Positions 13,253 through 31,601 of a stretch of 47,205 nt of DNA are shown in pieces (position 1 is the stretch's first letter; the number at the start of each line of letters is the position of its first letter). The DNA is from Candidatus Thioglobus sp. GTDB lineage: Bacteria; Pseudomonadota; Gammaproteobacteria; PS1; Pseudothioglobaceae. The notes beneath the pieces are model-generated. The model was not told the DNA's origin. It worked only from the letters and a program-made list of their open reading frames with translations, and made no database searches. The position numbers and the translations under genes are program-made. Where the stretch lies: assembly GCA_012959965.1 (NCBI GenBank), contig DUCF01000006.1, forward strand, positions 1-47,205, given 5' to 3'.

Positions 13253-14155
13253 TTATTTGTTTTTTATGCCGCTTGGGACATGGCCCGTCGGTACGTATTT
13301 CGACGCTGAATGACAGTGCTGATGCTGATCGTCAAAGAAAATATCCGCAGCAAACTCTCTTAAGAAGACGCCCTTGTCTAATCCGCCCAGAAAAAATGCC
13401 TCATCAATACGGATTCCCCATTCACGCATGGTGTGAATGACTCGCTTGTGGGATGGCGCTGAGCGTGCGGTAACCAAAGCCGTACGGATTGGGTTGTTTT
13501 CCTCGGGGAAAGTAGATTGAATTTTTTGTAGTGAAGCTAAAAATGATTTAAATGGTCCGGCCTTTAACTCGATATTGGCGGATAGCTTTTCATTCTCTTC
13601 GAAAGCTTCAAGTCCATGCTCCTGAAAGATTTTCTCAGATTCATCTGAGAAAATAACCGCATCGCCATCGAAAGCAATTCTAAGCTGAGAAGGGTGAACA
13701 TTATCCGATTTTGATTCAACAATAGAGGCTGCTGCAAAGCCAGACTCGAGAGCCTTTTGCACATCGTGATAGTTGCTTGAGAGAAATAAATCGGCTTCAA
13801 AGGCGCCGACAAAGGGGTGGGTACTTTCACCTCTAGTAAAGGCTGCCCTTGATATGTTTAAGCCGTAGTGCTCGATTGAATTAAAAATTCGCAGGCCCGT
13901 ATCAGCGCTGTTACGAGACAATAGAATAACGTCAATCGGGGTTTTGTCACTGTTGAGCGCAAGGAGTTTTTTCACTAAAGTAAAGCCAACCCCAGGCTCT
14001 AAGACAATATCCTCGTTTTCTTGTTGGTGTTTGGCGTAAGCCTCAACACCTTTGTCTTTGTAAATTTGATGGGACTCGTCAAGGTTGAGCAGCGCCCTTG
14101 AGGAAATGGCAATGACTAATTTAGTGTTATCGTTTGTTATTTGCTTCTCTGCCAT
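13253..14155 (-). CDS. Cytosolic 5'-nucleotidase (NT5C1-like family)
   Basis: 300 residues, matching the bacterial 5'-nucleotidase family related to animal cytosolic 5'-nucleotidase I. Family features include an early LVIAISSRALLNLDES, the LLSRNSADTGLRIFNSIEHYGL region (about 78-99), RIAFDGDAVIFSDESE (about 158-173), and a late FLGGLDKGVFLREFAADIFFDDQ whose acidic residues fit the HAD-type active site. It would dephosphorylate nucleoside monophosphates (AMP/IMP-like). Its start overlaps the yqiB stop by 19 bp and it is followed at 4 bp by the Gate protein. Confidence 0.8.
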   Translation of the reverse strand: MAEKQITNDNTKLVIAISSRALLNLDESHQIYKDKGVEAYAKHQQENEDIVLEPGVGFTLVKKLLALNSDKTPIDVILLSRNSADTGLRIFNSIEHYGLNISRAAFTRGESTHPFVGAFEADLFLSSNYHDVQKALESGFAAASIVESKSDNVHPSQLRIAFDGDAVIFSDESEKIFQEHGLEAFEENEKLSANIELKAGPFKSFLASLQKIQSTFPEENNPIRTALVTARSAPSHKRVIHTMREWGIRIDEAFFLGGLDKGVFLREFAADIFFDDQHQHCHSASKYVPTGHVPSGIKNK

Positions 14156-24076: not shown

Positions 24077-24349
24077 ATGAACAAATCAGATCTAGTCGCG
24101 GCAATTGCCGACGGTTCAGGATTAACAAAAGCAGACGCTGCTCGCGCATTGGCTGCAACAACAGATGCCATATCAGGTGCTTTAGCAGGTGGTGACACTG
24201 TTGCTATCACAGGTTTCGGTAGTTTTTTAGTTAGACAACGTGCAGCACGCACAGGTCGTAATCCACAAACAGGTGCTACGATCCAAATCGCAGCTTCAAA
24301 AGTACCAGCATTTAAAGCAGGAAAATTATTGAAGGAATCTGTAAACTAA
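24077..24349 (+). CDS. hupB: DNA-binding protein HU
   Basis: 90 residues, the usual HU length. The N-terminal [21 protein letters not shown] helices and the DNA-binding arm [24 protein letters not shown] are diagnostic. The ITGFGSF turn is intact. HU versus IHF: the arm and context (ppiD downstream, as in E. coli hupB-ppiD) favour HU beta. It has its own promoter and a strong terminator. Confidence 0.95.
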
Positions 24350-24372: not shown

Positions 24373-24407
24373 GCCCGGTTCTGGTTTTAGAACCGGGCAT
24401 TTTTTTT
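24373..24407 (+). terminator. Rho-independent terminator after hupB
   Basis: GCCCGGTTCT and AGAACCGGGC form a perfect 10-bp stem around a GGTTTT loop, followed by A and eight T. The first base of tRNA-Val comes directly after the T run. Confidence 0.9.
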
Positions 24408-24476
24408 GGGCGCTTAGCTCAGTTGGGAGAGCATCGCCCTTACAAGGCGAGGGTCACAAGTTCAAGTCTTGTAGCG
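24408..24476 (+). pseudogene. tRNA-Val (anticodon TAC), 3' acceptor strand missing
   Basis: The acceptor 5' strand GGGCGCT, D arm, anticodon arm (CTTACAA loop, TAC) and T arm (ACAAG-TTCAAGT-CTTGT) are all normal. The 3' acceptor should read AGCGCCC plus discriminator and CCA, but after AGCG the sequence becomes GTAGTTC, which is the body of tRNA-Asp. Only 4 of 7 acceptor pairs can form and there is no CCA. As drawn it cannot be a functional tRNA. A deletion or assembly collapse at the AGCG shared by both genes explains it. Confidence 0.8.
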
Positions 24477-24547
24477 GTAGTTCAGTTGGTTAGAACGCCT
24501 GCCTGTCACGCAGGAGGTCGCGGGTTCGACCCCCGTCCGCTCCGCCA
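24471..24547 (+). tRNA. tRNA-Asp (anticodon GTC), altered 5' end
   Basis: 77 nt with encoded GCCA. D arm GTTC/GAAC, anticodon arm CCTGC-CTGTCAC-GCAGG (GTC) and T arm GCGGG-TTCGACC-CCCGT are normal. The 3' acceptor CCGCTCC expects GGAGCGG, but the genome gives GTAGCGG because the first bases come from tRNA-Val. One acceptor mismatch (position 2, T against C) results. It overlaps the truncated tRNA-Val by 6 bases. Confidence 0.8.
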
Positions 24548-24551
24548 TATT

Positions 24552-24637: not shown

Positions 24638-24671
24638 AAAAAAAGGCGCTCATTAGAGCGTCTTTTTTTTT
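24638..24671 (+). terminator. Rho-independent terminator before ppiD
   Basis: GGCGCTC and GAGCGTC pair (one G-T wobble) around ATTA, followed by nine T; an A run on the other side extends the stem. It should end the tRNA transcript. A TATAAT at 24673-24678 directly follows and may be the ppiD -10 box. Confidence 0.85.
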
Positions 24672-24777
24672 GTATAATAATCGACTTTTATCAAGGAATC
24701 TGTGGCCTAGTTTGGTGCGACCTTCACGCACTCGAATGTGAAATTAGCATTTGTTTTTCGCCACTAAAAATTAAAAC

Positions 24778-26625
24778 ATGTTAGGTGCAATAAAAAATAA
24801 ATCAAAAGGCTGGGTTGCCTACTTAATCGTAGGTCTTCTTTCTGTCCCGTTTGCCTTGTTCGGCATTCAGTCATATCTTGGCGCAAGCAATAATCCCGCA
24901 GTAGCGAAAGTATATGGTGAGGAGATTGATTACTCGTCCTATGCTGTGTTGTTGGAGAGTAATCGTCGCCAGAATCAAATTGAATTTGGCTCTAATTACA
25001 CTGACGAGATTGATAATATCTTAAAACAAAAGCTTATTGACCTTATGGTTACTCAGAAATTGTTTGAGATGATGATTGATTCTCTTGGCTTGGTAACCGT
25101 TGAGCAAGAAGTGATCGAATCTATATGGGCTGATACAAAATTCCACGAAAAGGGTGCTTATTCTCAAGATCTTTATGAGAAAAGATTACGCTTAGAGGGT
25201 TATGAGTCAACTGGAATCTACTTTGATGAGCAATCTAAGCAGTTGAGAAGTGATCAGCTTACTCGTAACTTAACACAATCTGCACTGATCACCAGTGTTC
25301 AATCGGATCAGTTAAATGCATTAGCCTCACAAGAGCGAGAGGTTGCTTATATTGCATTTAATACGGCTGACTTTGTTAATAAAATTGCAATTGACGGTGT
25401 TCAAGTTTCTGAGTATTACAATAATAATCTTGCAAATTTTGTATCTTCTCCTCAAGTTAAAGTCAATTACATTGAGCTGTCACGTAAAGATGTTGCCGTA
25501 CCGGGGGATGCAGATGAAGAAACTTTATTGTCTCTATATGATGACGAACAACAGCGTTTCTCTGTCGACGAGACAAGAAAAGCACAGCACATCCTTGTTC
25601 AAACCGAAGAGGAGGCCTCTTTAATCCTTGATCAAATTAATGCCGGCGCTGACTTTTTTGACATGGCCAAGGAGCACTCTATCGACTATTCCACAAACAA
25701 TGTGGGCGGTGATTTAGGCTACTTCGAGCGTGAGCGCATGGTGCCAGAGTTTGACAAGATAGTCTTTGAGTTAAATACAGGCGAGACGAGTGGTGTGGTT
25801 AAAACGCAATTTGGTTATCACATTATTCGAGTGAATGATATTATCGAAGCTAACGTGAGATCGTTTGCCGACGTTAAGGGTGAACTGCAGGAAATATATA
25901 CAGAAAAAGCCATTACCAATGAGCTTTACAGCTTGCAAACAGAATTGGCAAGCTTGGCTTATGAAGAGCCAATTGATATTGTTGCTGATCAGTTTGGTCT
26001 TAAGCTGCAATCTTCTGAGTTTTTCTCTGCTACGAGTTCTGCTTATGATGCGGCATTTATTAAGGCTGCCTATAGTGATATAGTACTTGGGGGTGATAAT
26101 TCAGACGTGCTTGAAATAGGGACTAAGTTTGTCGTTTTAAGCTTGGCTGATCAACAGCCTGAGAGTCAAAAAGCGCTGGATGAGGTTTACGGCGAAGTAG
26201 AGGCGACCTTGAAGACGATTGAAGCGAAAGTTGTTATTGCTGACTTGGCTAAAGAAATTTCTGATGAGTTATCAAGCGGCAATCATTCAAGCGCAGATTC
26301 ATTAATTAGTGACAACGACCTTGAATGGAAAAACGAGGGCTGGATCGGTAGAAGAACTGAGATGCCATTTGGTGTCGCTGTTGCAGCTTATAAGATGCCA
26401 ACACCAACGGATTCAAAAGCATCCTATATTGCTCAAAATATGGATGGTGTGACCACTGTATTGGTCAAGGTGAGCGGCGTAAGATTGGCCGAAAATGGCG
26501 AAGCGGGATGGCCTTTGGTGCAGTCGTTTGAAATAATGAACGAATGGTCTGCCAGTTTGATCAAGAGTCTTAGAGAGTCGGCCAAGGAATCGGGCGATAT
26601 CCGCATATTCTCTGAATTTCTTTAA
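24778..26625 (+). CDS. ppiD: Periplasmic chaperone/peptidyl-prolyl isomerase PpiD
   Basis: 615 residues, normal length. Short cytoplasmic N-terminus, one transmembrane helix (about 13-32), a SurA-like N-terminal chaperone domain (about 35-190), one parvulin domain from about KAQHILVQTEEEA to GYHIIRVNDI (roughly 266-360), and a helical C-terminal domain. PpiD sits at the Sec translocon exit and works with YfgM, also encoded here. hupB-ppiD synteny matches E. coli, except that tRNA genes lie between. The 107-bp leader after the terminator contains a small GTGCG/CGCAC hairpin (24715-24731). Confidence 0.93.
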   Translation: MLGAIKNKSKGWVAYLIVGLLSVPFALFGIQSYLGASNNPAVAKVYGEEIDYSSYAVLLESNRRQNQIEFGSNYTDEIDNILKQKLIDLMVTQKLFEMMIDSLGLVTVEQEVIESIWADTKFHEKGAYSQDLYEKRLRLEGYESTGIYFDEQSKQLRSDQLTRNLTQSALITSVQSDQLNALASQEREVAYIAFNTADFVNKIAIDGVQVSEYYNNNLANFVSSPQVKVNYIELSRKDVAVPGDADEETLLSLYDDEQQRFSVDETRKAQHILVQTEEEASLILDQINAGADFFDMAKEHSIDYSTNNVGGDLGYFERERMVPEFDKIVFELNTGETSGVVKTQFGYHIIRVNDIIEANVRSFADVKGELQEIYTEKAITNELYSLQTELASLAYEEPIDIVADQFGLKLQSSEFFSATSSAYDAAFIKAAYSDIVLGGDNSDVLEIGTKFVVLSLADQQPESQKALDEVYGEVEATLKTIEAKVVIADLAKEISDELSSGNHSSADSLISDNDLEWKNEGWIGRRTEMPFGVAVAAYKMPTPTDSKASYIAQNMDGVTTVLVKVSGVRLAENGEAGWPLVQSFEIMNEWSASLIKSLRESAKESGDIRIFSEFL

Positions 26626-30419: not shown

Positions 30420-31601
30420 TTAATTTTTTTCGGAAACCTTGCCAAGTATTACTTCATTGCCAGCACTTGGCTTTGAAGGCACATTGAACGCTAGGGCCAA
30501 GGAAAGAATTGCCATAGCAGCGCCAGCATAAAAAACGAACTGATAAGATTGAAGCCAGATTATGCCAAAAGATACCGGTATAAATACAGCGGCAATGTGA
30601 TTGATGGTAAATGACACCCCCGCACTGGAGGCAAAATCCTTAGGGTCGGCAATTTTTTGGAAATACGTTTTTTGAGCAATGGCCATAGCGAAAAAGAAGT
30701 GATCAAGCAGATACAGAACAACGGCAATCTTTGGATCTTGGGTTATGCCGTAGCCTATAAAAACAACGATCAGGCCAAGGTACTCAATTACTAAAGCTTT
30801 GCGTTCACCAATCTTGCCAATGAATCTGCCAATTCGAGGGGCTAATGGAATTTTAATTAAGGCGTTTAATAGGAAGAGTATTGATATTTCAGCGACACTA
30901 AAACCAAACTTTTCAACCATTAAAAAACCGGCAAATACGACAAAAATTTGCCTTCTGGCGCCACCCATAAATTGCAATGCGTAATAAAGCCAATAGCGAC
31001 GTCTTAAGATGATTTTCTTGGTTTGCTCGACGTGTTGTGGCAGATCGTCAAAATAGCGCCAGCAGAATATTGCGATTAGAATTGTAATGCAGCCAGCCGC
31101 CAAATAAACCCAAAGGTAATCCAGCCCAACAAACTCAAATAATAGCCAAACCGTGCCAAAAGCAACTATCGATGCCGCTGAACGAGTGGCGATAATTTTG
31201 CCGAAAAATTCGGCACTTTTTTCTTTGTCGATCCATTGCAGTGTCAGAGAATTAGAAATGGTTTCAAGATAATGAAAGCCGATTGACATAAGAATGGTGG
31301 TGGCGTAGAAGGCTGTATTGGTTGGAAGAAAGCCGGTGAGTGCGGTTCCAATACCTAACAAAATGAGAGAAACAAAGGCCATCTTTTGCTCTTTAATGAA
31401 AAGCAATACAAAAATAATGGTGAAGGCTAGGAATCCTGGAATCTCCCTAAGACTTTGGAGAATGCCCATTTCCGAACCATCAAAGCCAACTTTTTCGATG
31501 GCAAAATTATTGAGCAGGTTAAGCCAGATGGCAAAGCTCATGGAGCAGCCAACCGTTATCAACAGTATTAATAATTCGCCAGATTTTCGGTTCATCCTCA
31601 T
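30420..31601 (-). CDS. Major facilitator superfamily transporter
   Basis: 393 residues with 12 predicted transmembrane helices in two six-helix halves joined by a basic loop (WRYFDDLPQHVEQTKKIILRRRYW, about residues 186-209, split here by its two halves). The DRxGRR-like motif between helices 2 and 3 is not clear; PRIGRFIGKIGERK (about 265-278) is the second-half counterpart. No substrate can be assigned. It converges with recJ (8 bp apart) and diverges from thrS. Stand-alone gene. Confidence 0.8.
   Translation of the reverse strand: MRMNRKSGELLILLITVGCSMSFAIWLNLLNNFAIEKVGFDGSEMGILQSLREIPGFLAFTIIFVLLFIKEQKMAFVSLILLGIGTALTGFLPTNTAFYATTILMSIGFHYLETISNSLTLQWIDKEKSAEFFGKIIATRSAASIVAFGTVWLLFEFVGLDYLWVYLAAGCITILIAIFCWRYFDDLPQHVEQTKKIILRRRYWLYYALQFMGGARRQIFVVFAGFLMVEKFGFSVAEISILFLLNALIKIPLAPRIGRFIGKIGERKALVIEYLGLIVVFIGYGITQDPKIAVVLYLLDHFFFAMAIAQKTYFQKIADPKDFASSAGVSFTINHIAAVFIPVSFGIIWLQSYQFVFYAGAAMAILSLALAFNVPSKPSAGNEVILGKVSEKN

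Follow-up and report, generated by a model that had tools for sequence, protein, structure and literature searches.

In a draft genome of Candidatus Thioglobus sp., the gene for tRNA-Val(TAC) runs into that for tRNA-Asp(GTC) with four bases held in common. This raises the question of whether the cell carries two fused tRNA genes, and could live with them, or whether the junction arose when the genome was put together. We analysed the whole stretch of DNA on which the pair lies, which is 47,205 nucleotides long and is called the window here. It forms contig C6 of a draft assembly with 95 contigs and 1.79 Mb, which is 99.69% complete with 2.49% contamination.

The tRNA-Val and tRNA-Asp junction

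The tRNA pair and the genes on either side of it are all on the forward strand. Upstream is a gene for an HU-family DNA-binding protein (24077..24349; PF00216, 1.5e-33), and the gap between this gene and tRNA-Val contains, on direct reading of the sequence, an inverted repeat resembling a terminator (GCCCGGTTCT/AGAACCGGGC), with 8 consecutive T after it (24374..24407); similar repeats are seen in relatives. Downstream is a gene that we name from its domain content as a PpiD/SurA-type peptidyl-prolyl isomerase (24778..26625, an open reading frame of 615 aa; PF13616 and PF13624). In the gap between tRNA-Asp and this gene, a hairpin with a T run, which is probably a terminator, draws weak, below-threshold Rfam matches (STnc40 and Leu_leader) on the minus strand at 24639-24724.

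An earlier note, made from the letters alone, had claimed that the two tRNAs are fused through AGCG at 24408-24547, and this is correct base for base. ARAGORN, which the note had proposed to run on this contig, calls both genes, as an overlapping pair (tRNA-Val(TAC) at 24407-24481 and tRNA-Asp(GTC) at 24471-24547). Rfam reports only Asp at its gathering score in the scan of the window, and in the whole-genome scan matches the Val body over model positions 4-67 of 71 with 53.2 bits. Together with the acceptor pairing, these searches define a tRNA-Val(TAC) at 24408..24476 that is complete over positions 1-69 and lacks the 3′ acceptor positions 70-72, the discriminator and CCA. ARAGORN and Rfam likewise define a tRNA-Asp(GTC) at 24471..24547 in which G-T replaces G-G at positions 1-2. 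The common AGCG (24473..24476) forms positions 66-69 of Val and positions 3-6 of Asp, so that the Val sequence passes after position 69 directly into the D arm of Asp. Our pairing analysis also agrees with the note on the state of both stems: Val keeps four Watson-Crick acceptor pairs (7:66 to 4:69), beyond which G-G, G-U and G-A are opposed, and Asp keeps six of seven, with a T-C mismatch at 2:71.

The missing bases are defined by comparison with a relative, G019. Taking exactly 20 nt out of the G019 tandem gives window 24408-24547 base for base. This gap lies between two copies of AGCG, and it removes what the note had listed as absent, namely the Val 3′ acceptor strand with CCA, the spacer and the first bases of Asp, of which two are lost. 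Among the positions at which 20 nt could be deleted from the G019 tandem, 10 of 140 (7%) have a 4-bp microhomology; counted by distinct products, 2 of 96 do. Set against chance, the 4-bp microhomology at the Val-Asp junction is therefore suggestive but not decisive. Two spans of 77 nt each, 24400-24476 and 24473-24549, are bounded where relatives differ, a post hoc observation that we do not count as evidence.

The locus in related genomes

The normal tandem that the earlier note expected, with Val, CCA, a spacer and Asp in this order, is what relatives have, and it represents the ancestral state. A search of the genus for the Val-Asp locus covered 24 other genomes and recovered it in 19; the five without it are incomplete. 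In each of the 19 the tandem is intact, a complete Val with CCA being separated from a complete Asp by a few bases of spacer, and the fusion occurs in none of them. The single-contig genome G005 is one of the 19, and in a second single-contig genome, G040, Val and Asp are two separate full-length matches. Named genomes were scanned for fused and unfused forms with a single pattern, which gave 23 unfused records out of 23, some of them from genomes shared with the genus set and with our own genome possibly outside the scan. Most of these records are labelled SUP05 cluster, Thioglobus or Ca. Pseudothioglobus, and some carry unspecific gammaproteobacterial labels, which places our genome in this marine clade. 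Ten loci from other families are intact tandems too.

A narrow pattern for the Val-Asp fusion, which would miss other kinds of overlap, was run on 369 genomes of the class, an even draw from a larger group, and matched two. One match is our own genome. The other, in G396, was rejected as a second case, as it arises by chance inside a tandem that is intact and has a spacer of 11 nt. Viral contigs were searched with three exact patterns (the fused junctions and the left flank of our own genome), each of which gave 0 matches.

The genes flanking the pair are intact and collinear with relatives, and the downstream DNA continues as in G019. In one near relative (locus L108, CAJXHL010000012.1) the HU gene also lies upstream of an intact tRNA pair. 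Directly after its tRNA-Asp, at 634-1154, the sequence is unlike the window and includes an integrase-like frame with an N-terminal integrase domain (Arm-DNA-bind_3, PF13356), and by this sequence a mobile element appears to use tRNA-Asp as its integration site in the clade. We considered such an integration as the cause of the fusion and rejected it, as there is no foreign DNA or integrase at the 3′ end of the tRNA here, the downstream DNA is collinear with G019 and the element is found in L108 only. Divergence of this kind would mean that strains can part exactly at the end of tRNA-Asp, which may help to break an assembly there.

A second fused pair in the same genome

The same assembly has another fused pair, in which tRNA-Gly(GCC) runs into tRNA-Cys(GCA) on the minus strand of contig C57, at 13956-14098 (L091). 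The junction is 61 nt shorter than in G019, and the microhomology relative to G019 is 2 bp only (CC, as read from the strings). Gly(GCC) keeps all seven acceptor pairs, with just TCC ahead of the start of Cys, and the acceptor end of Cys has mismatches at 1:72 (C-C) and 2:71 (T-C). Relatives have Gly with CCA, then a spacer that often contains a hairpin and a T run, then Cys; the locus was recovered in 24 of 28 of them and is unfused in all 24. Eight pairs of neighbouring tRNAs less than 100 nt apart are called by ARAGORN in our genome, of which these two are fused and the other six are normal.

Gene copies, codon use and acceptor strands

The earlier note had raised an intact second copy of both tRNAs as a way out of the functional puzzle. 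We found none: a family search and ARAGORN showed no further gene for Val(TAC), Asp or Cys in the assembly, although the family search is imperfect and missed a second tRNA-Glu and the tRNA-Lys cut by the end of contig C21. The same search gave 29 tRNAs in our assembly, versus 38 and 35 in two single-contig relatives. The tRNAs listed for our assembly (G000) do not include Ile(GAT), Ala(TGC), Leu(TAA) or Thr(TGT), and include Lys as a fragment only.

Decoding of GTA and GTG normally requires a tRNA with the TAC anticodon; a Val(GAC) gene is present in the genome. The 37 larger open reading frames of the window, with 12,596 codons, use GTA 123 times and GTG 157 times, and for the other affected tRNAs use GAT 425, GAC 279, TGT 82 and TGC 57 times.

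The acceptor strands that have been orphaned, GGGCGCT at the 5′ end of Val, CCGCTCC at the 3′ end of Asp and TCCGGCC at the 3′ end of Cys, are unchanged. As they still complement the strands that were lost, there is no sign of adaptation or compensation. Finally, a search for Thg1-like proteins (PF04446) found none in our genome; the same search was positive in 1 of 14 controls, Methanosarcina acetivorans.

Joins and breaks in the draft assembly

The assembly contains runs of 10, 10, 22, 47 and 100 Ns, some of which may be masked stretches, as the ends of contigs C1 and C2 are wholly masked. One assembler usually leaves runs of 10 Ns. The sequences on either side of the 10-N run in contig C46 share 29 nt at 93% identity, i.e. 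Ns stand there despite an overlap, and the 285 nt preceding the 10-N run in contig C52 do not align to G019. We also compared 104 contig ends, four of which are all N. Nine pairs match over 58-344 nt at 86-99% identity, and such divergent matches between ends indicate mixed strains. No exact dovetail of at least 12 nt, from which the word length of the assembler might be read, was found among these 104 ends; one exact match of 55 nt terminates at a contig end.

Contig breaks at tRNA genes recur in the genus. In G019, four tRNAs have their first base no more than 5 bases from a contig end, and contig C16 of G001 begins at the last base of tRNA-Asp. Among the listed matches, several tRNAs lie within 12 bases of a contig end (for example in G001:C16, G017:C42, G011:C67 and G043:C54, C66, C83). 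In our own genome, contig C21 ends inside tRNA-Lys (31374-31426, L090). By eye, the frame just upstream of this tRNA-Lys ends like an HU-family protein, which resembles the arrangement of HU gene and tRNA in the window. We had also considered a single N in the spacer of L103 and L036 as a sign of an assembler break, and dropped it, since both records have many scattered single Ns.

A comparison of insertions and deletions with G019 covered 300,941 of 441,568 of our own bases, contigs C17 and C46 contributing 0 aligned bases, as the comparison included no G019 counterpart of either. It gave 18 deletions of at least 8 nt in our genome. With open frames of at least 150 codons considered, 16 of the deletions fall outside them or at their edges, and the other two are no more than about 45 nt from where such a frame starts. 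Only the deletion in the window cuts an RNA gene, and no other destroys the core of a gene, so errors that do so are not widespread in the aligned part. There are also 19 insertions of at least 8 nt, four of them inside frames. One of these four, of 8 nt and thus not a multiple of three, is inside a long open frame of contig C90, near 41515.

Probable local assembly errors and their alternatives

Both fusions are most likely not real biology, and we regard them, with good though not complete confidence, as products of local assembly errors, both at conserved tRNA junctions. In this scaffolded draft of the Thioglobus/Pseudothioglobus clade, contig ends would have been joined wrongly, or the assembly graph resolved wrongly, where tRNA sequence is conserved. 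Since tRNA genes may be nearly identical among co-occurring strains and species, contigs would tend to stop there, and a pipeline linking neighbouring pieces could merge them on a very short match (AGCG in one case, CC in the other) and so lose the bases in between. The cell itself would keep an ordinary tandem, in which tRNA-Val, its 3′ acceptor side and CCA included, is followed by a spacer of a few bases and tRNA-Asp.

Several observations favour this explanation. Two unrelated tRNA junctions, on two contigs of one genome, are fused, and no recovered relative has either fusion. The damaged genes are the only ones found for Val(TAC), Asp and Cys, while the open reading frames use their codons freely, and the orphaned acceptor strands are uncompensated. 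The draft has doubtful joins elsewhere (its N runs, overlapping flanks and divergent contig ends), contigs of the genus tend to stop at tRNAs, and the tRNA total is low compared with the single-contig relatives. The earlier note had allowed that its junction might be an assembly collapse, and it is this possibility that the second fusion, the damage to single-copy genes, the lack of compensation and the unreliable joins now favour. However, some observations speak against an assembly error. Neither junction carries Ns: there is no N within 24408-24547 or at the Gly-Cys junction, and no contig end or N run at either. The flanks are clean and collinear, the six other tRNA tandems are normal, and in the part aligned to G019 no further deletion of at least 8 nt destroys a gene core. 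Some of the N runs may also reflect masking. Moreover, a real deletion by slippage would be expected to leave a microhomology of 4 bp as well.

The best of the alternatives, though an unlikely one, is a real and very recent deletion between short repeats (AGCG and CC) in a strain or in part of the population, with intact copies that are unassembled or are carried by other cells. Val, and Cys as well, would then be dead or poor when made from the fused copies. The geometry that the earlier note proposed, a deletion between 4-bp microhomologies, stands, since the product is exactly the G019 tandem less 20 nt between two 4-bp repeats, and the clean, collinear flanks fit it. That this deletion took place in a cell does not stand equally well, since the evidence points to an assembly error. 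Two independent events would be needed, both in tRNA acceptor stems and both sparing the aligned protein genes, and so would unassembled duplicates of both tandems. A draft that is several tRNAs short could be missing such copies, but our searches of the assembly itself gave no intact one, and there are no duplicated tandems among the matches listed in relatives.

Far less probable is that the overlapping tRNAs work, as in mitochondria, by a cut in the shared transcript that favours one tRNA and a repair of its partner, with Val completed at its 3′ end and Asp and Cys repaired at their 5′ ends. That one small genome has two overlapping pairs, all four of whose members ARAGORN can fold, would suit such a system, and Asp, with its one mismatch, may be usable unchanged. 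In addition, the downstream partner of both pairs has 5′ mismatches, and according to a review on tRNA editing it is such a pattern that organelles correct by 5′ editing (PMC4284800). However, our genome has no Thg1-like protein by the search for PF04446, Val would need templated renewal of at least three acceptor bases, and the arrangement is absent from all recovered relatives and has not been compensated for. According to the same review, bacteria are not known to have either overlapping tRNAs or editing of tRNA ends, both being confined to organelles, and in a test in E. coli the downstream tRNA of a pair overlapping by 1 nt was degraded (PMC4284800). We consider it very doubtful, then, that these are two overlapping pairs matured by Thg1-independent end repair, which would make them the first overlapping, edited tRNAs in bacteria.

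Least probable of all is a chimera made at the bench before assembly, by template switching at structured tRNA during amplification or library preparation and thus present in reads but not in cells: folded, repeat-rich tRNA DNA with short shared ends is generally suited to template switching, but at both places the chimera would have had to be more abundant than the true sequence.

Comparison with known systems

The overlapping tRNAs of animal mitochondria that undergo 3′ editing are similar to the fused pairs in that tRNAs on the same strand share nucleotides at the border of 3′ and 5′ ends. However, the mitochondrial overlaps are of 1-6 nt, compared with 11 nt here by the ARAGORN bounds, where Val lacks its acceptor 3′ strand altogether, and ours is a free-living bacterium with the fusions in one genome only (PMC4284800). 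Thg1-like 5′ repair, as outlined there, is matched by the mismatches of the downstream Asp and Cys at positions 1-2, but not by any Thg1 member found here, and this pathway does not restore the missing 3′ side of Val (PMC4284800). Our literature search for overlapping tRNA genes in bacteria gave, among the papers listed, no case of two tRNA genes that overlap each other; a predicted tRNA-Sec gene nested in selB, named in the title of one paper, is an overlap with a protein gene (PMC8124441). If the overlaps were real, they would overturn the view, as given in the review, that overlapping tRNAs and end editing belong to organelles only (PMC4284800).

A broken essential tRNA gene also recalls tRNA-dependent lysogeny, in which prophage integration damages tRNA genes (PMC10865867), and the integrase-like frame after tRNA-Asp in L108 adds to the likeness. 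In contrast to that system, the window has no element, and the damage is a plain gap of 20 nt.

If the fusions are artefacts, they mean that tandem tRNA genes in draft genomes can shorten silently, without Ns. A missing or odd tRNA in a draft is therefore weak evidence for altered decoding, and tRNA tandems can serve as a simple check of an assembly. Both Ns inserted despite an overlap and local errors without read support are known faults of metagenome-assembled genomes, according to the part of the literature on them that we cite (PMC7111523). Loss of bases between tandem tRNAs is not among the faults described in that part, but in other respects our genome resembles the drafts affected by such local errors and misjoins: it is strain-mixed, it has N runs, one of them with overlapping flanks, and it breaks at conserved stretches (PMC7111523).
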